Positions 26,401 to 59,269 of a stretch of 64,000 bases of DNA are shown here, in pieces. The stretch comes from Xiphophorus maculatus. Lineage: Eukaryota; Chordata; Actinopteri; Cyprinodontiformes; Poeciliidae. Below the pieces are notes generated by a model that was given only the letters and a program-made list of their open reading frames with translations, did not search any database and had not been told where the DNA came from. Positions within the stretch are counted from its first letter, which is position 1, and every line of letters begins with the position of its first letter. The stretch lies in the NCBI RefSeq assembly GCF_002775205.1, contig NC_036456.1, forward strand, positions 23,635,968 to 23,699,967, written 5' to 3'. Position numbers and translations under genes: made by a program.

Positions 26401-29400
26401 TCCTTGAAGTTGTTGTCTGTGATGTTCACCGCCGGCTTGCCGGGTTCCTGGAAGATCAGGAAGTCTCTCCTGACGGAAAATAAAAATAAAAGAAATGAGG
26501 GGAAATCCTCACGAGTCTCTTCCAGCATCCAGAACAGAAAGTCCACTTAAAGCTGAACTTTAAACTCTGCTTTGTATTTCAGTGAGATCGCCATAGCAAC
26601 TGAGTCGCTTCATTCGTCATTCATGATGGTTTTACGTAGAGATGAATGATAACTTTTTATTTTTTAATAGTTTTCTCACTCCAAAGGCCAATAATCCCAA
26701 AACTGGACGTTTGTAGAAATGAAGCTAAAGAACATTTTTATCAGAGTCTCTAGACGACAGCGGGTGTATTTACATTACGAAGCAGCGGGTGTACTTACTT
26801 ATACATGACAGCCAGAGCGTTGATCTCCACTTCTCCCACCCATTGCTGTAAAACCGTGATGTCATCAGTTTATGTTCAGCGAAACGCTACAGAGTAAAAG
26901 AATGAATCTGAGGTTTTACCTGCGGGTCCTGCAGCTTGCTGAGGTATTCCTCAAAGTTTCCCTCGATAAACTGAAACAGAAATCAGAGCAACGAGTCCGG
27001 AGACATGAAAAACATCTGAACGCAAAGGAAATATTTATATAACGAAATGTTTTACAGTGCTGTAGCCAGAAATGTGATGACTCATTTTTAAATTTCTCTA
27101 ACTTGGTGTTTGAACTTCTGGTTTGTTTCAGTATTTAGTGCTTAAAAGGACAATCTCATGATTAGTAATTAAATGTTTTATTTTTTTATTTCTAGATTTT
27201 TCGGTCACGTTAAAAGATTATTTTAGTCTAGTTCCGAGAACGTTGGCTTTAGAGTAAAATTTATGAGACAATAAACTCATAAAGTCATTTTTTAAATAGT
27301 TTTGTTTCTCTCAAACACTTTAAATTTATTTCTTTAAATAAATCTTGTTTTTTTCCATGTTCTTATCATGTTGTTTACTAAATAAAAATGTTTTCCTTAA
27401 AACCTCAAATTAAAGCAGCCTGACCTTTTATTCAATTAAATTAAATCTCCTTATTATTGCATATAATATAATATATATAATATTAATTCCTTTATTTAAT
27501 CAGGTAAACCCCGTTGAGATCTAGATCTCATTTTCAAGAGGGACCTGAGACAAACTTCACTCCCCGTCAGGGAATCGAACCCCCGGTCTCCCGCGTGACA
27601 GGCGGGGATACTCACCACCATACTAACGAGGAGCTATGTATTCACTTTGCTTATATCCTAATAATAATCATAAATATTCATAAGATTTTTTAAAATGCAT
27701 AACATTTCTACTTTTTGTTGGTAAATTAAATATAAATTTAATCAACAATTCCTCAAAAATGCAATCATATTAAAAATATATGATTGTCTTTTTCCATTAC
27801 ATGATCTGTAAAAGCAGTAAATAAAAGACTCAAACTCCCAGAATTCATAGCATGTTATCAGTGAGTGCCTGAAAGTTGCCGGTTCAGTTCTGCAAGGCGC
27901 CCTGCAGCATTCTTACAGGAGAAAAGTCCTGATCGCCGTCAGAAAGACGCAGCGTTTATCTTTCGCTTTCAGTCCAGCTTTAAGGAAACAAACCGAGAGT
28001 CGAGTCTGAATCATTAACAGCTTTTATTCGTTCCTCCTTCATAAAGCCATTAAGCAACATTTGGCTCAGTTTCTGCTCTTTCTATCGTCAGATTCACTGA
28101 TAAAAACCTGCAATGTTTTCACCTCCTTCTGTCGTTCACTCAAACTTTGAAGATCTCCATTTTTGTTGAATTAAAATGGAAAAAATCTCACTTTGCTCAA
28201 GTTGGAGTTGATATTTTTTACTTGTAAGGCCAAAATGATGTGAAAAAATGAGTAGCACAACTGGAAACAACCAGAAACTGTTGCGACCTTACAGTCGAGC
28301 TTTATAAACAATGTTCTACATGGATTTCTGATACTCTTTGGGTGGATGTTTGTGTTGACTGAAAGTCTTTACTCCTGTTGCTTCTGCCTATTTCTATATT
28401 TTTTTTTACATTTCTGCATCTCTTCTGCAGCTGACTTCAAATGCTGCTGCAATTTTCACTAAAAATATTCAGCTTACAGTGAATTTTCACGGACTGTTTT
28501 CTTCACACACACATACAACCTGTAAATTTTATCTGCCATTATTTATGTATAATCCATTCCCTAACATTCTTGTATATTCTGTATAATCTGTATAATCTGT
28601 GCATATAGCTCCCATATTTATATTTATACAGAATATCTATATCTCTTGCTATAACCACTTATAGTCCATACATACATAGTCTTGTACATCCGTAAATAAA
28701 TATTTATATCTCATAGAGCACTTCTGGATAGATGCAAACTACATCTCGTTGCTTGTACTTGTGACAGTGCAATAACAATAAAGTTGAATTCTATTCTATT
28801 CTATTTTCACAGGAAATGCAATGATTTCTAGTTAAGTTTACTTCAGTAAATTTTGGGGGAAAAGATGCTTTGTTGTTTCACAATGACTGTGGATGCTAAG
28901 AAATATTTTACTCAATAGCAACAGAGTAAGATTTCTGACTCTACCCAGTGGGAAATAACTTTTCTGAATGAATAACAATGTACATGATATTTATGTCAAA
29001 GTGAGACCTCTTTGTTTGTTTACCATCTTTGATGTTATTTTCTATCTGCTGCATTTGGAGGTCAAGTGAACATACAGTAAACAGAATATATTGTCACTAC
29101 ATGTACTTTACCTCTAACATTTATATTATCTACTGCATGTATTAGTTTTATATTTAAGTAATTTATTGGAGAGAATTTTGTTTTATAATCATATGTACTT
29201 GCATATGTTTTAGATGTGTTATTTTTACTTTACTTTCTGGCTACTGTACTCAGCTCTGTCTAGAATCAGAATGAAATTCTGTTAGAAATGTAAAGTGTGG
29301 TTAAAGCTGGTGCTTACCGCCTCATAGCTGTCCCGGTTCTGCTTCAGGAACTCTACGCATTTGGTCCGGACCTCAGTGTGGAGGCTCTGGCTGTGCAGAA

Positions 29401-38072: not shown

Positions 38073-41000
38073 TTACAAAGACGTGAGGCCGAGGTAACCC
38101 AGGAAGGAGTGTTTGTTGGAGCAGTGCGGTGAGGAAGAGGAGCAGGAGGAGAAATAGGAGCGAGGTTTCAGAGAGATGAGCGTTGTGATGGGGAGGAGAG
38201 GAGATAAATCCCTCCATCCTGTGCAGTCGGAGAGCAGCGGCTGCAGCGCAGGAAGAGGAGGAGCAGCAGGGCGAGGAAGAGAGGAGGCGGTGTGCAGCCG
38301 CCGGACGTGTTTGCTGGAGCGCTGACCGTCTCCGTGGGGGGCGTAGGTCCGGTGCGTGTGCACGTCGGCGTTAACGCCGGCGTTAGCGCTGGCATTAGCG
38401 TTAGCGTGCTTCACCTTGCAGTGCAGCCGCAGACTGTCCCGCCGCTTGGCGCTGTAGGGGCAGAGGTCGCAGGTGAACGGCCGCTCGCCCGTGTGGACGC
38501 GCACGTGCTCCACCAGCTTGTTGGCCGTCCGCGTCAGGTGGCCGCAGCGGTCGCACCGGTACTGGTTGCCCTGGCGATGACCCTGGAAGTGGGCCAGCAG
38601 CTCCGGTTGCCCGGGAAACGACCTCTGGCAGATGCGGCAGCGATGCTCGGAGGTGCTCTGCTCCGGCTGTGTTGCCACGGCGACCGGCAGAGCTCGGCTG
38701 GGGGCGGCGGGGAGAGGGGCCGGGCGTCTGGACGATGAGAAACATCCACAGCCGAACGTTATGAACTCTGTCACTTTATCGTCTTTATTTAGGATTTAAT
38801 CTGACAGAAAATCAGACAAATTCTGATTTATTTTCATTAAAGACAAAATGAAACATTTCTGGTTCCTCAGTTAGTGGCTGTGTTTTATTTTTGTGTTTTT
38901 ATGATGGACTGTCTTGTTGCTGAAATGTCATTAATTGATTGATTATCTTTTAGAAATAAAATCTCAAAAGTGTGGTGTGCATTTATTTTCAGCCCAACCA
39001 ACCAAATGTCTTTCTCAAAACAATTTAAAAAGTTTAGGAAACAAGATGTTTTTCCCACATGACAAATGAAGAAATCTGCAACTTTTCATCAATATTCACT
39101 CAAAACAAGCTCTTATGTCTTGTTGAAAAGTTACTAATAGTTTAGTTTTTTTCTGATTTCAAGTACTAATGTATTTGCACTAAAAGTGGGGAAAAATACC
39201 AGAAAACATTTTGTGTTTTTGGACTGTGTGGATTGTAACTCCAAATTATTTGTGGAAAATTTGACGACTCACATTTCTTTGTACCTAAAAAATATAAGTA
39301 CTTATTTATATTAAATGTGTCAAAGATCTGCGACGTTTAGGTAAAATTTCAAGCAGATGAACACTTCATAATGTAACAGTGAAGGGTTGGAAAAAAAAAC
39401 TTCACTGCTACAAAAATCATAAAAAAAACTTGGAAAGTTGTTACTATTTTGTTATGAAATGTTTAAACATCTCTGTTTTCTGAAAATAAAATTAAAACAT
39501 AAAGAAAACAGTTGCAGAAAAGGATGGACATGACATGTACTGACCTCATTTCTCCCGTGTCGCAGTGTACATGCGTGTCCACATGGGCCATCATCTCTGC
39601 CTCCTGATTGGTCGAATGGTCGCACCTGCAGCAGTGCAGAGAGAAGGAGCCGTGTTCCCATTGGCGGTGCTCCGTCATGTGACTCTTGAAAAGGGCGTGG
39701 CCCTCCGTCTCAAAGCCGCACACGTGACACCTAACGTGGACGAAAAGGTGAACGTATTTACCAACTAAAACAGGCTGTTGCCATGGTAACAGACCCGAGC
39801 TTTACGTCATAAATGTTGTGTCTTTCATGAGTTATATCTGACTGACAGCTTACATCGAGTCTTTTGTCCAAAATCAGCCTCTAACTCAGTAATCCGTACT
39901 AGTGAGTTCTACTCTATGCAGATGATATTGTAGTGGGCTCATTATTTTAATAAAACGCTCCAGCACCAACTGGACCTAAATGGAGCCGAGAACTACATGG
40001 GCTCTGGGTCACATAAAGGTGATATTAATATCGATATTAATTCACAACATATTTCTGTAACGTACAAAAGTAAAAAGTAAAACCAGGAGATTTCACTGCT
40101 TGTTCTGGACGATTAGGCTGAATACACCAACTAATACTACATGATACAGAAGTAATATTTGGTATTTTATAGATTTAAATACTGTTGTAAAATGTTTATT
40201 TACTAGAGATAGCACTGTACTATCCACATATACTATAAAATATAACAGAATTACTGATAAATATTTTGCTACTGCTGTTATTCCTGTAAATTATGTCAAA
40301 AAACCACCAAATTTTGAAATTTATTTTATTGTGTATTTGTGCTTTAAACAAACTCACAAATAAAACTATAAATTACAGAAACACTTCTTGGCTATGAATG
40401 CAGTTTAAATGTACATGTATAACTTTTTTTAAAAAGTTTTTGCAACAGATCAGGGAGCATCTATTTTGTGAAAAGCATTGATCTATTTAATACCATTTTA
40501 ACCTTCAGATTTAGGATAAATAAATACGTAAACAAGGAAGCTTTTCCATTTACTGGGGGTTTAGCTTCAACTCGCTAATGCACATGTCTGTTCTGTAGTT
40601 TAAGGTTAAAATGTTGACTGGTTTGGATTTTATTAGGGTTGTATTTGATAAATGCATTAACACTTATACTTTGAGATAAAACACGACATATTTTGATTTA
40701 ATGACATTCAGTTAAACGCAGTTTTTTACATTCTGATCCAGAGAAATAAAGCTAAATCAAAATTATTAAAATATGTTGGTTAAAACACTAAAAAATGAGG
40801 AATAATGGAACATATAAACCTAAATGAGGGAATTAAATGATTTGCTAAATTAATTCCAGTAATATAAATGACAAATCTAATTTAGTTTGCTTTATTTTAT
40901 GATTCCTGAAAGGACAGAATATATAAAAATTACCTGAAGAAGTAAGAAGAACCCGAGGTTTGATCTCTAACGATGCTGGTTTGCATTTCTGCAGAGAAAA

Positions 41001-44000: not shown

Positions 44001-47000
44001 CTACTATATCGCTCAGCTGAACCAGGCGTAATTTGAGCTTTTCTTTGTTTTCTGACATGTTATGATGTCAGGTTGTATCAAGATTTCTCTGTTTTGTGAC
44101 AAGAACAAGCAAACAGTACAAACCATAGATCTCCAGGTGCTGAACCTTCTACAGGTTGGTTTATTTCTCTAGATAGTTCACAATTTTTATCAATTATCAC
44201 AATAAATTATAGGAAGTAGAGCTGCAACAGTATAAAGCTTTGGCTAGATATGTATATCCAAAATTAATTAGCAGTTATTCCTGATATTTACTGAATTATA
44301 TGTATCTCCCTACCATTTTGCCAAAAAAAAACACGTTGCGTCTCTGATTCAGTTAAACTCCCCACAATCCTTTGCTGCATCACTATCACTGTCACATGAC
44401 CAGCCGCTTCCCCTAATGAAACTTAAATGGCACCAAGATGGAAGCAAACATTGGTTATCAATATCGGACCAATACGCTAAAACATGGGCATTCCCAATAG
44501 AAAAAGTTAAAACCTCAAATGTAATTTAATCTATTTTTATTTCTACACCCAATTTCTCCTGAGTTTGGTTCTGATCTCCACTTGGGTCGGTTAAATCTTA
44601 TGACTCCTGATCAAACCAGAACATCGCGGTCATGTGACAGTGAATTTAACCAGCCATTAAATTCATCAGCTCAACCGTAGTTTGTCAGTCAGTAACTGTT
44701 TTCTTTAGAGGTTTCCATTTTAGGGTTGCACTGGAGTCACATTGACCCTGGAGAATAAAAGTTGCTCTATATCTGAAGAAAAGCAACATATTGACCTGAA
44801 AACGACCAGGGATTAATTAGCTTACCGGAGAGCTGATGCAGTAGCGTAGAGGCCAGGTTGACGGACATGTCCTGCCACAGGACCGCTCTCAGGCACTCGT
44901 CCTCCATCTTGGCTCCAAAGAGAAAGTGCTCCTCTATTTTCGCTCCAGAGAAAACCTGAGCGGCCATCTTGGCTCCAGAAACAACCCCGTTCTCCAACAT
45001 GGCCGCTGAAGGAAACTGGCTCTCCTTCGTGATACCAGAGAAAAACTTGTTGCTCATCTTAGCTCCATTGAACGGTTTCTCTGAAATCTTTGCATTGACA
45101 GGACGAAGGTTGTCCATCTTGGCTCTGGGATGAAGGAGGTCCTCCACCGCGGTTTCAGGAGCTGAACAATCCTCCAGTTTCACCTGAAACTGAAAACCGT
45201 TTGATGCGTTCAAGAAGCAGTCTGCTGGGTGAGAGGAAGAAAATCCATCTCCTGCGTTAAGACCAAAGCTGTACTGGTCCACCATATTGGCTCCAGGGTG
45301 CAACTGTTCAGCTGGGTTATTCCTGGTGAGGAACTGGTTTTCTGGTTTTACATTGAAGAGATGGTGGTTCGTCATCCTTAAGGTGGAATGAGTCGTCTCC
45401 TTGACGACCAGCTGACTTGGGGTCATGGCGTCGACCTCCAGAGGCTCCTCTTCCTCTTTGAGCCTCAACATGTGGCCGCTGACATCCTGGCGCTCTGTAA
45501 CACCAGGAGAACATGGCAAAGTGTTCTTAATTATCTCTGAACATGGTGACGTTTCTGTAACGTTTGTCAGTCTGTCTGTACCTGCCAGTTTCCTGAGCAG
45601 GTCTGAGGCCAGGGTGTCTGTGACGGCGTTTCCCTCCGGGGTGTGGGTCAGCGACGGCGGCTCGGGACTCGCACCGGGACCGTCCGGCGACAGGGCGACG
45701 CCGGGTTCGTCCTGCTGCTCCGCCTCCTCCTGGCTCCCAGGATGCATCTGGGCCTTCTGGGTGGCCTCTGAAGGGAGTGAGAGAGAGTTCAGCTGACAGG
45801 ACTGACTTGACCCCTGAAAGGCTAAAGGTCGGCAGAGATCCTGACGATACCATGACATAATAGGGTGATAGCATCCAGTTTTCTGGGATTTTATTCCACT
45901 TTACCCAAATTATGCTGATTTATTCTTTGGTTGTCATCAGATTTTTTTCTTTCATTTTATTAGTTTGATATTATTTTTAAATGTAGCCTCCATTGTCCCA
46001 CCAGACTGTAATTTAGATGCTAAAGTTGCCACCAATGACCAGCCAAGCAACTGGATTATCCTGTGGTAGATTGGCCTGGTGGGGGTATACCGCCAACCTT
46101 TAACCTTTGACTTCTGAAGACTTGTAGTAAATCTTGGTGCTGATTGGCTGAACGATTAAAGGCAGAAATAAGGAAAACTTGACATTAGTTTCTGCTGTAG
46201 AGCTAAGATGTTTTCCACTGCATGTATTAATGCATATTAAGGTATATTTGGTGTCTGAACCATTAAGACAGGCAGTTATCAACTGAATCTCTCATCTGCT
46301 TCTCTAATTAATGATCCATGTATTTGTTTCCATCCACTATCTTTCCACTTTCTATCCAAAAAGGTTAAAAAGTTCAAGTTGTGTGAAAAGTTGTGCAATA
46401 TTCCATATAAATTCAGTAGCTTTCCAAAGCTCAAAGAATCCAACTTGGCTGGGCAGAGAATACAAATAATCACACAGCGTTCCTCTGCTATTTTTAGGGA
46501 ACGTTTCTGGATCCAGCAGGTTTGGGTGATGAAATAATTTTAGATTATTTTAGGTTTGGTAATTTAACAGGTCTCCAAATAAATGCCACTCTGTACCAAA
46601 GATTTTCCCCTAATCCTCTATAAGTCTGAAGAATTTGCATGCGCTCGATTGAGATGACAGCTTTCTTCGATGGATGCTGCTGCTTTGCCTGTCTGCCGGA
46701 TCGTTTTCAGTTACAGCTGGAATAAATTGGCTGCACTTGGGCCTCAGAGTCAGCAATATTTCATTAAATCAGGTAACTTTTCCCAATTCCTCCCCATCTG
46801 TTGCCGCTCTGCAGCAGACATGTTGACAGGTTAAGCTTCCCTTTGCCCAGATAGCCCAAATTTTAATGATTTTTAACACTTTCTCTAAAATCAGAGCTTT
46901 TTCTGCTTTCTTTAAAGCATGTGTGTTAAACTCGTGGTGCAGGGGCCAAATCCAGCGCACTGTAGCACTGGCCCTCTAAACTCTATAAATATAACTTTCA

Positions 47001-54444: not shown

Positions 54445-54450
54445 TTTATT
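54445..54450 (-). terminator. PolyA signal of the lectin-like gene
   Basis: AATAAA on the minus strand about 145 bases after the stop codon (54597-54595). Confidence 0.5.
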
Positions 54451-54594
54451 TTTAATTGACCATTGATCAGATAAAACAATTTTGAACTTGGAAAAAAAAA
54501 ACTAAAAGAGAAATGTTTTCATTCAAGTCCAGAATAATCTGGTAAATATTCCTGCTTTGAAAATATGCAATGTGTGAGCTGAACTCTGAGGAAG

Positions 54595-57500
54595 CTATAA
54601 AACATCAGCCCTGATGTGGATTTCTTCATCATCTTCATCCTCACAGCTCCTGCAGCAGAATAAAAACATTTAGAGACTCTTCATCACATCAGTTGCACAG
54701 ACAGACCTGCTTGTTTCTTACACATATTTATGGAGGCTCTTCTGATTCATCATGTGCTCCCTGAAGATGGCGATTGCTTTATGGACGTCCATTTCATCCT
54801 GGTACTCCTCCACCACCGCTTTGAATCTGCCAAATGCAGATTAAACAACAAAGTATAAACTTTTTTTATAGTTTCTAGAAGGAATTTGTCCAGAGAACCA
54901 ACAAGTCCTTTGGATTTGGTGTCTACCAACTTTGTACGTCTACAGACAGAAATATTTGTCAGTCGTATTGGACGGGGAGGATTTGTAATCATCAGTTTAG
55001 AATTTTGCTACAGGTTCTTTATTAGATCTTAGTTTTTGTATTTGACTAGGCCATTTAAACACTTGAATATATTTGATATAAACCAGGGGTTATCAAAGTT
55101 TTGGAAAGTTTGATGGTTCATTTGTACGTTTCATTGATGTTGTGGGATTTACCTGCTATAGTTTGGCGTCATCTACATTGATAAAAGTATAAACAACTTC
55201 CTGTTGTGATCAGAGTTCATTTAGCCTCCTGTCATAAAAATACTGGTGTTTGGTCATCAAACATCATTAGCTAGCACCTCTTAGCAGACCAAACCAGCTG
55301 CTTTTCCATTACAAATGTACTTCATTAAAGTAGAAAAAAAAACACAATTTTGCAATTTAGCGGCATTTCCATTAAATAAGAAATCACACATGAATAAGTT
55401 TATTCATGTGAGAAGTTATTAAAAATCAAGCCGCAGCATCATCTTCCAACTACTTCCTGTTGTCCTCTTCTTTGTGGTTTCTGCCAGTAGCAACATCCAG
55501 TTGTTAATCATACAACTCGTGTGATGTGTGATTTCCTTAAGCAGATTTGTTTTCAAAATATCAAATTGTGCAATCATATGGTCAATAGAAATGTTTACTG
55601 TGGCAGTGAAGCATCTTCAGATCCAGCCCATATAAATCCAAACTTTAAATAATCATGGTCTCACTTTAGTTACTAAAAGTCTATCCAGTTTGTGTCTGGT
55701 AGAGGCTTGGTGAAGTTGGCTAAATGTTTGAAGTTTCTGGTTAATTTCAGGTCCAAACGTAGTTGGACTGATTACGCTGAAGCAGTTCACACCTACCTCT
55801 TAACCCAGACAAAGTCCACGTTCTCCCTCCTCCACATCTGGTAGAAACTGTTCTTTTTCAGGCTCGGAACCTGTGACCCGAGTTCCTGATGCAGCTTCTG
55901 AGCCACAAAGTCCTGCAGGCAGGCCCGGGCCGACAAAGCCAGGAGCCAGTACACCGGGTCGTCCAGAACCACCCGGTGGAAAGACTGCAGGGACCACTGG
56001 AGCCACTGTGGGGCCGGGGAGGAAAGATGGAGGCTCTGCAGGAGGAAGAATGAAGGTTAACCAAAATTCATCTTTTCATTCTGAATGCAGTTTGGAGTCA
56101 TTAGCAGAGACATTGGTGGTAATTTATCTGTAATCTGTTCTGGTCACCTGCTTTCCTGTCCCGTATCGTCTGAATGTGTCCAGCAGCAGCGACCTAATTT
56201 TACTGTGTTCATGGAGACGCCCAACCAGAACCTGCCCAATGAAACAAGAGGAAAAAACATGACTGAGCTGCTTCAGACGATGATTTTTATTCAGTCTCTT
56301 ATTTAATGGAAACACCACCATTGAAAATTTGTGGTTTTTCAAAACAAAACTGACAAAAGTTTTGTGGACATTTGTAACAGAAACGCAGCTACAGATAAAG
56401 ACGCTGTCCACCGTGACAGTGTCTTTATCGCCTTTTCCATATGAATGTAAGAAAGTAAATGTTCAAATGATTCGACTGAGTAAAACATGAAAAAATTCAA
56501 GGACAAAATTAGCAAATATTTTTTAAAAGGTGGTAACTCCCTCTTTCAGAAGACACTTTGAAACCAGGTTGTGCTAACTGCTCTGTGGGTTCGTGGAGCT
56601 TTTTGTCTGCTGGTCGCCATGGCAACGGGTCTGTTAAATTAAGCTATAACTTATATGGTTCGCATAGGAAATAAGGGCGCTGCGACCAGTTTTGTGACAG
56701 ATTACTGCTCATGCCGTATTGGGACATCGTCGCTAGCTGTAGCGGCTAACAGGCGAAGTTCAATCCAGTGATATACATCAGTGGCTGTACCATTTAGTGG
56801 AAATGAGGCTCAATAAGTGTACGATGGTATAACAGTGGTGACCTCTGACCTCAAGTGTGCTTCTGACTCTGAGCAGGTAAGTCTCCTCCTGCTGCATGAA
56901 TGTGTTGTAGCAGCGTTCCGTCAGATTGCCAGACCTCAGGCCTCTGAGCAGCGAGGATGAGAAGAAAATCTCCTTGGCTTGAGTGGAGCTGGAGTCCCAG
57001 ACGACGTCGAACAGAAGCACCCCGGGGACGAGCCCTGGGCAAGAAGAGACGCAGACTGAGGGGCAATTTACAGGCTGGAGCGATACGCACTGCAATGTCC
57101 AGATGAAGACTCTACTGATCACTGAGGGCGACTTAACATTCACCTAAAGCTGACCTGCTATCTGAACAGGTTAGGGTGGGTTTTGGGTGGATGGGTTTTA
57201 CAAAACATGTTGATCACATTTTTTGCCCAGATAATAAGAGTTTAATCTGATCATTTCTTCTATTTTTTGGTTTTAGGACAACCTCACCTGGTTGAAGCAG
57301 CTTGTTTCTGCTGAGGTCAGCGGAGGTAAACCTGAAAGTAAACAAACACAAAACTGAAAGACTAGAAGCTGTTAGCAACTCTCCACTGAATGATCACATA
57401 CAACTGCTGCTGCCATGAACTTTGTGTCCTCTCTGGGATTGTTTCTTGTTGCAGGTGTGCCTGGCCCAGTGTTTGTGCATTGGTCTGTGTCTCTTTCCAG

Positions 57501-59269
57501 TTTGAGTTTTTGACAGAATTACGCCTCCCACAAACTGCACTCAGTTTTACCTTTCCATAAAAAATACTCCTGACTCAGTTCTTAACTGTTCGCTGAGTCT
57601 CTGCGTTTAACCATTTATTCTCTCTTTGTTCTTTCCAACTGAAAGTAAACCAGGCCCAGTTCGTCTTGGTTTCTCAGAAAACCTCTGGTATAGAGACTCT
57701 CCGTTGAAGGAGCTGAAATGACTCCCAATGAGATCACTTCTCAACTTTGGCCTACCTCGGTGAAGTGGTGCAGATGTAGAACCGAAGTTCTCCACAGGGG
57801 GCGCTCTGCAGCTCTCCAGCTAGAAACAAAGACACATTAAGTGCTTTCAGTCCAATTTAACTTAAATATGGTTCACATGAGTTTCTAAATTTAATTTATA
57901 TTGGAACCATATAAATCTTAAAGTATTTGATAGGTCGCTCCAGCACTTTTCCTTCTTCCTTCCTCCATATCCACTCTTTGTTTGGTGCTAATGACATCAT
58001 TGGGGCTTTAAACTTACTAGTCTGTATACTACTTGTATGTACTAGTATATGGATTTTACACTTAGGCTGCTGGATGAAAAACTTTAGTTTTCTTCACTGT
58101 TTCACCAACCAGAACAGGCAAGTATTGGCACAATTTGGAGGCGTGTGCGCACTTCTAGATATAGGGAGCCCAGTTCAATCCTACCTGTGGAAGGGGCCAT
58201 TGTTTCTAGCCATGGCATCTACGGAGTATTCACCAGCACCACCTTATGGATATGGTGCATCTGGTGAACCGTTTTCTCCCTTTCGTTTTCAGAGGACACA
58301 TGTTGAAATTATTAGGAATTCACACAACCGCCCCAGAGGCATTTTGCTCCAGTTCGATGCAGAACTGGTCCGTCATGAGTGTTTGGAACAGCATTGTTCT
58401 TTAAAGATGTGCCTCAACCAAACCCGGTAACAACTATCAATAGTTTGATTTTAAATGTAGTGAAGTGTTAATCCAGCTTGGAAGGAGTTTTTGTTTTTAC
58501 TTGCATCTGATGGAATGAGACGTAATACATTAACAAGCTTTTAAAACAAGTGGGTAAATATGTTAAGACTTCTAACGCATCAGGTGTTAAAGGTAAACTG
58601 GTGAGATGTAATAGTAGCTGTTTGCTCTATAAATATTGCATTCATGCATTTTGTTTACTTTTGGGTATCATTTCCATGCAGAGTCCAAACTCTTTGGTCT
58701 TTTCGTCCATCTGGTTGGTCTGGTTGTTAAGCAGATAGTCGTCACTCCAAATCCTTGATCCATTCTGTCAGAGAGAGAAAAACAAAGATGGAGATAAGAG
58801 TACTGTTGAAATCAGGTGTAAAACACATAAATCTGACGCCTCTCCTCACCTGGTGTTTACCCAGCCACACAGGTGTGCTGGTGTTGGTCAGTTGGAGGAC
58901 AATTTGCCTTTCCTCCGGGTTGTGGAGCAACATGAGGTTCCCACCGGTCTCAGAGCATAAAGTCTAAGACCAGATACTCAGATTACACACAGGAGTGACA
59001 GAGTGGGACAGAGAAAGCAAACGTTGGCTCTTACTTACACTGGCACTGGTCCAAGAGCTCCACACGGGGAAGAAAGCAAAACATCTCCGTCCGAAGAGGA
59101 GCCACCCGGGTTGACACTGAGGGGAAACGCCCACTCCTGTAAATTACACAAATGTGAAAAACTCTCGCATTGGTGACACTTTTTACTGTTATAATAGAAA
59201 CAAGTCATTCGTACCTGAAGACGATGCAGAGAAGGACCAAAGCAGCAGATAAACTGACACGGTTAGCAT
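54595..59269 (-). CDS. Secreted C-type lectin-like protein with unrecognised C-terminal domain
   Basis: Eleven minus-strand exons: 59269-59215, 59136-59039, 58963-58850, 58764-58659, 57819-57756, 57331-57288, 57034-56850, 56231-56148, 56035-55797, 54826-54722, 54649-54595; 1149 nt, 382 aa, all GT-AG and phase-consistent. Residues 1-18 (MLTVSVYLLLWSFSASSS) form a signal peptide. Residues about 26-141 are a C-type lectin-like fold with the six long-form cysteines (C26-C37, C54-C141, C118-C133 by family pairing) and the WLG core at 84-86. Neither EPN/QPD nor WND is present, so calcium-dependent sugar binding is unlikely. Sequons at N78, N90, N103 and N197 fit secretion. Residues 147-382 are predicted mostly helical, without a convincing membrane segment, and end in an acidic CEDEDDEE stretch; I recognise no family. 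I give no symbol. Confidence 0.82.
54827..55796 (-). other. Intron of the lectin-like gene, no other feature
   Basis: The intron between the exons at 56035-55797 and 54826-54722 is about 970 bp. No exon, RNA gene or clear repeat is seen. Confidence 0.5.
57820..58658 (-). other. Intron of the lectin-like gene carrying an unexplained plus-strand open frame
   Basis: The intron falls inside the lectin-domain coding region. A plus-strand open frame of 167 codons (57927-58430) crosses it. It shows no domain I recognise and no splice-consistent extension. It may be part of an old insertion. Confidence 0.4.

Follow-up and report, generated by a model that had tools for sequence, protein, structure and literature searches.

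Within the window, the whole 64,000-nucleotide stretch of Xiphophorus maculatus DNA analysed here, we rebuilt a minus-strand gene from the raw sequence. Its 11 exons run from 59269 to 54595 and hold 1149 coding bases including the stop codon, corresponding to a protein of 382 amino acids. All introns of this lectin-TenA gene model are of the GT-AG type (10/10), including those at the junctions 57756-57331 and 57288-57034, so that the original prediction of eleven exons closing in frame to 382 residues is borne out. Exon 1 (59215-59269) provides the start codon and signal-peptide-like residues 1-18 and ends in phase 1. A C-type lectin-like domain begins in exon 2 (59039-59136), continues through exons 3 (58850-58963) and 4 (58659-58764) and ends in exon 5 (57756-57819) with its last cysteine, C141. 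Read-through at the donor of exon 5 leads immediately into a TAG codon, and intron 5 carries an AATAAA (57614-57619) that could mark the 3′ end of a lectin-only transcript. Exon 6 (57288-57331) is a 44-base linker exon that ends in phase 1.

The remaining exons encode the C-terminal half. Exon 7 (56850-57034) opens a TenA-like domain with VVW...GLRSGNL...QQEETYLL and holds E210 and Y213; exon 8 (56148-56231) continues the domain and ends in phase 0. The column of the catalytic cysteine falls on R287 (55925-55927) in exon 9 (55797-56035), and that of the catalytic glutamate on Q358 (54742-54744) in exon 10 (54722-54826), where the matched TenA-like stretch ends. Exon 11 (54595-54649) lies outside this stretch and contributes an acidic tail and the stop codon. 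Poly(A) signals follow downstream at 54456 and 54450, the latter an AATAAA on the same strand (54445-54450). GC content at codon positions 1/2/3 of the model is 0.53/0.40/0.67, compared with 0.39 in the introns, and third-position GC amounts to 0.70 in exons 7-11 and 0.61 in exons 1-5. The best 9-residue hydropathy of the N-terminus is 2.3, and the protein is therefore likely to be secreted; it contains four N-glycosylation sequons.

Four other features of the window, all on the minus strand, are (i) a tRNA-Asp (GTC) gene at 27559-27633, (ii) an open frame with an ANAPC10 exon at 1051-1524 (PF03256, 55.3 bits), (iii) an open frame with C2H2 zinc-finger matches at 38076-38795 and (iv) a 377-aa open frame at 44770-45900 in which short GAKM-like motifs recur and which has no Pfam match.

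The lectin half

The Pfam model PF00059 matches residues 46-142 with 43.3 bits at a curated cut-off of 22.6. The lectin part contains six cysteines (C26, C37, C54, C118, C133 and C141), a number that marks the long form of the C-type lectin-like domain. Ca-dependent sugar-binding C-type lectins carry EPN or QPD plus WND. A motif search found none of the three anywhere in the 382-aa protein, which places it outside this group. The profile match and the motif search thus agree with the description given in the original prediction, a secreted-type six-cysteine domain without these motifs.

Genome searches covered one fish genome of 704,300,149 bases in 101 contigs. C-type lectin exons are abundant in it, with at least 150 matches scored from 510 candidates. 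At E ≤ 0.01, the lectin domain of the window gene finds 27 matches, five of which are the gene itself; the other 22 are only 25-36% identical, and no close copy of the domain is among them.

A TenA-like C-terminal half and its relative on contig C9

As judged from profile comparisons, the C-terminal part is a diverged TenA-like domain, a member of the family that includes bacterial thiaminase II and zebrafish thiaminase I. The original prediction had regarded this region as an orphan and had named in advance its placement in a known family by a profile search as the outcome that would speak against an orphan. The profiles place it with the TenA/thiaminase proteins, and the orphan reading is given up; the accompanying claim of an unusually long C-terminal part behind a lectin domain stands. 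The suggestion that this part is the functional one holds at most as a possibility, given that its enzyme residues appear to be lost.

Among 177,635 distinct PDB sequences, the sole match to the C-terminal part up to E 10 is 2a2m (BT3146), with a whole-sequence E of 0.027 made up of two collinear stretches, neither of which passes alone. The sole match among 18,950 NCBIfam models (E 0.052) is to positions 325-375 of NF011301, a model whose positions 325-530 are matched by a Rikenellaceae BtTenA-like protein (L010). Both matches are only leads, and we therefore built profiles and scored the C-terminal part among 4,000 of its own shuffles. A 23-member TenA profile gives 19.1 bits (best shuffle 6.1), the match lying mainly in residues 169-236 at the front of the domain. 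A three-member profile of the BtTenA subclass (2a2m, L010 and L048) matches in two collinear stretches, which together reach 26.6 bits (best shuffle 11.1); when the gene on contig C9 described below is added as a fourth member, a single stretch, 168-359, scores 32.9 bits (best shuffle 10.5). Left out of the profiles were L030-L036, judged by eye to be other PF03070-like proteins, and L049-L053 were also unused.

Single sequences are mostly too distant. Of 25 TenA-family sequences, five score above every one of 500 shuffles, led by the C9 gene and then BT3146; the other 20, including B. subtilis TenA and L010, do not. Pfam gives no match to the C-terminal part, which does not reach the gathering score of PF03070; the cut-off of 22 is also missed by the C9 gene (17.8 bits) and by L010 (16.9 bits), and PF03070 run against the fish genome yields one match of 14.8 bits, below the cut-off. 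A single-sequence hhalign comparison with a small mixed alignment, from which a non-TenA row (L029) was later removed, is collinear and weak (P 0.0024 global, 0.011 local, Prob 4-5), and we give it no weight.

When the window TenA-like domain is used as the query against the genome, five of eight matches fall on the gene itself and three (L016-L018) elsewhere, with E values of 1.2-4.3; L017 and L018 were dismissed, as inspection of their open frames by eye revealed nothing TenA-like. Neither the window protein nor L010 has a relative among the viral contigs, and phages searched with L010 gave no match. Four plasmid records match the window domain at E 2, all through the same kind of chance traU match, and were likewise rejected. 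Directly behind the Rikenellaceae BtTenA-like gene, at 828-1226 of L010, lies an open frame of 132 aa; for gut Bacteroidetes, a BT_3145-like neighbour of 127-142 aa is described in PMC10277260.

On contig C9, the Rikenellaceae sequence matches two exons in collinear order (31034399-31035087, E 0.0013 and 0.41). The resulting stand-alone TenA-like gene (L056, G000:C9:31031500-31037500) has three exons, including a hydrophobic first exon placed manually at the sole phase-1 donor found, and three exons are also given for the zebrafish thiaminase genes in PMC9839694. At the start of the C9 protein, QDVYEELWLNNSDLARQT is identical to a red cornetfish thiaminase I peptide at 10/18 positions. Its best PDB match is 2a2m (E 4e-10), and it keeps both the catalytic cysteine (LLPC) and the catalytic glutamate (QNEQ). 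About 25 kb from this gene lie two partial copies of its second exon (L059 and L060, G000:C9:31059496-31060829), 61% and 52% identical; one match among these partial copies has two internal stops.

The window domain and the C9 protein match with a BLAST E of 1e-5 in a one-sequence search at sensitive settings, with 38/204 positions identical and 94/204 similar, and none of 2,000 shuffles reaches either the local or the global alignment score. Gene anatomy is shared in part. The intron before the TenA-like domain is in phase 1 in both genes and is followed by a shared tryptophan, 10 codons on in C9 and 12 in the window gene. The second intron of the C9 gene, in phase 0, corresponds to intron 8 of the window gene, both lying 24 residues from a D/E-D/E-P motif. 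In addition, two introns of the window gene interrupt the matched stretch and a third interrupts the tail.

Probable loss of the catalytic residues

The column of the active-site glutamate (Glu205 in B. subtilis TenA) is occupied by Q358 in 3/3 broad MAFFT alignments, in 3/3 subclass alignments and in the alignments with C9, so that the domain carries a glutamine in place of the glutamate of TenA and the BtTenA subclass. The column of the cysteine (Cys135) falls on R287 in 3/3 subclass alignments and in the alignments with C9. In the broad TenA alignment, this position is taken by C289, followed by a six-residue insertion, with two of three aligners and by a gap with the third. The cysteine is most likely replaced by arginine R287, as the alignments with close relatives suggest. 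E210 aligns with Asp44 of B. subtilis TenA and Y213 with Tyr47, so this tyrosine is kept; the Tyr112 column holds a tryptophan in the broad alignments and a leucine in the subclass alignments. We take these three positions, beyond Cys135 and Glu205, to have active-site roles. Several pocket columns differ in the window domain. With an arginine in the cysteine column and a glutamine in the glutamate column, the domain is probably a pseudoenzyme, unable to cut thiamine.

Two other accounts of the replaced residues were considered. The domain might still be an enzyme, either with C289 taking over from the catalytic cysteine or with a changed chemistry. C289 lies two residues off the column, where two of three aligners place it in the broad alignment, Tyr47 is conserved and a glutamate stands in for Asp44. 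Close relatives, however, put R287 in the cysteine column without a gap and Q358 in the glutamate column as well, and among 48 representatives of the BtTenA subclass, PMC10277260 gives the cysteine as kept except for one serine and the glutamate except for one aspartate. Retained catalysis is on this evidence quite unlikely. Alternatively, the gene could be decaying, the residues having been lost through disuse of the domain. The gene has been seen in one genome only, its catalytic residues appear to be lost and contig C9 bears more partial TenA-like exons, which speaks for decay; yet the 382 codons contain no internal stop, the splice sites are all intact and third-position GC is high in both halves, which makes decay a very improbable account. 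A catalytically dead domain in an intact gene is the reading carried forward.

A probable fused gene and its comparison with known systems

We consider it probable, from the gene model and the profile matches, that the locus is a single fused gene encoding a secreted C-type lectin-like domain, a short linker exon and a catalytically dead TenA-like domain of the BtTenA/fish thiaminase subclass. The lectin exons and exons 7-10 are supported by homology, and exon 6 between them has none. The competing possibility is that of two products, a soluble lectin that stops behind exon 5 alongside a TenA-like protein with a different, unseen first exon, the fusion being a model artefact or a minor isoform. 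The exon 5 donor (57755) runs straight into TAG and the AATAAA at 57619 follows about 140 bases on, so that a lectin-only form may also be made; the other start could lie in an upstream ATG frame, whose donor at 58110 is weak. A stop is, however, often expected at a phase-2 donor, and exon 7 has no start codon of its own. Of nine ATG frames between exons 5 and 7, with a best hydropathy of 1.3, none resembles a signal peptide and a single one carries a weak donor. In 59200-57034, three ATG frames pass a hydropathy filter, only one of them with a donor, which matches 6/9 consensus bases. Exon 6 has intact splice sites, and its inclusion leaves the frame closed. Two separate products thus seem unlikely, and the single fused gene is retained.

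Such a gene could have arisen by exon shuffling, with lectin exons inserted at the phase-1 intron of a TenA-like gene in place of its signal-peptide exon, an exchange that would explain the gene anatomy. The lectin domain might anchor the protein on an extracellular glycan or protein surface. The apparently dead TenA-like domain is probably a binding module: its helical fold would bind a small molecule uncleaved, perhaps thiamine or a related pyrimidine, or might instead multimerise the lectin. On native gels, recombinant zebrafish thiaminase I migrates at 25-100 kDa, a pattern interpreted by the authors as oligomers (PMC9839694). We put forward as a long shot the full proposal that exon shuffling turned a fish thiaminase into an extracellular protein that is guided by its lectin and binds vitamin B1 or its analogues without cutting them, for nutritional immunity or vitamin supply. 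If it were true, the gene would encode a thiaminase recruited as a pseudoenzyme and would hint at the purpose of animal thiaminases; the physiological role of thiaminase I is quoted as a long-standing unsolved problem in the discussion of PMC9839694.

A domain of a fish secreted protein that Pfam missed now has a family, TenA/thiaminase, and the lectin-joined copy points to an extracellular, surface-directed setting. An apparently dead lectin-joined copy and a stand-alone gene with catalytic residues in one genome offer a natural comparison of binding and cutting. In the open-licence papers searched, we found no report of a fusion between a lectin and a thiaminase or TenA domain. Reports of animal TenA-like genes date from 2023 (PMC9839694, PMC10277260). 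In PMC10277260, fish TenA-like proteins are assigned to the BtTenA subclass and 115 fish proteins with some homology are mentioned, among which orthologues of the window gene may be found.

With C-type lectin-like domain proteins (PF00059), the window protein has the domain profile and the six cysteines in common, whereas its TenA-like partner is peculiar to it as far as the open-licence literature shows. BtTenA (BT_3146, PDB 2a2m) ranks first in the PDB for the window domain as well as for the C9 gene; it is bacterial, consists of a single domain, keeps cysteine and glutamate and has demonstrated thiaminase activity (PMC10277260), in contrast to the lectin-joined window domain that appears to have lost these residues. 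The fish TenA-like thiaminase I (zebrafish NP_001314821.1, PMC9839694, represented here by the C9 gene) shares with the window gene the homologous domain, the secreted type and introns of the same phase. The C9 gene stands alone, has three exons and keeps cysteine and glutamate, whereas the window gene is joined to a lectin, has more introns and appears to have lost both residues.
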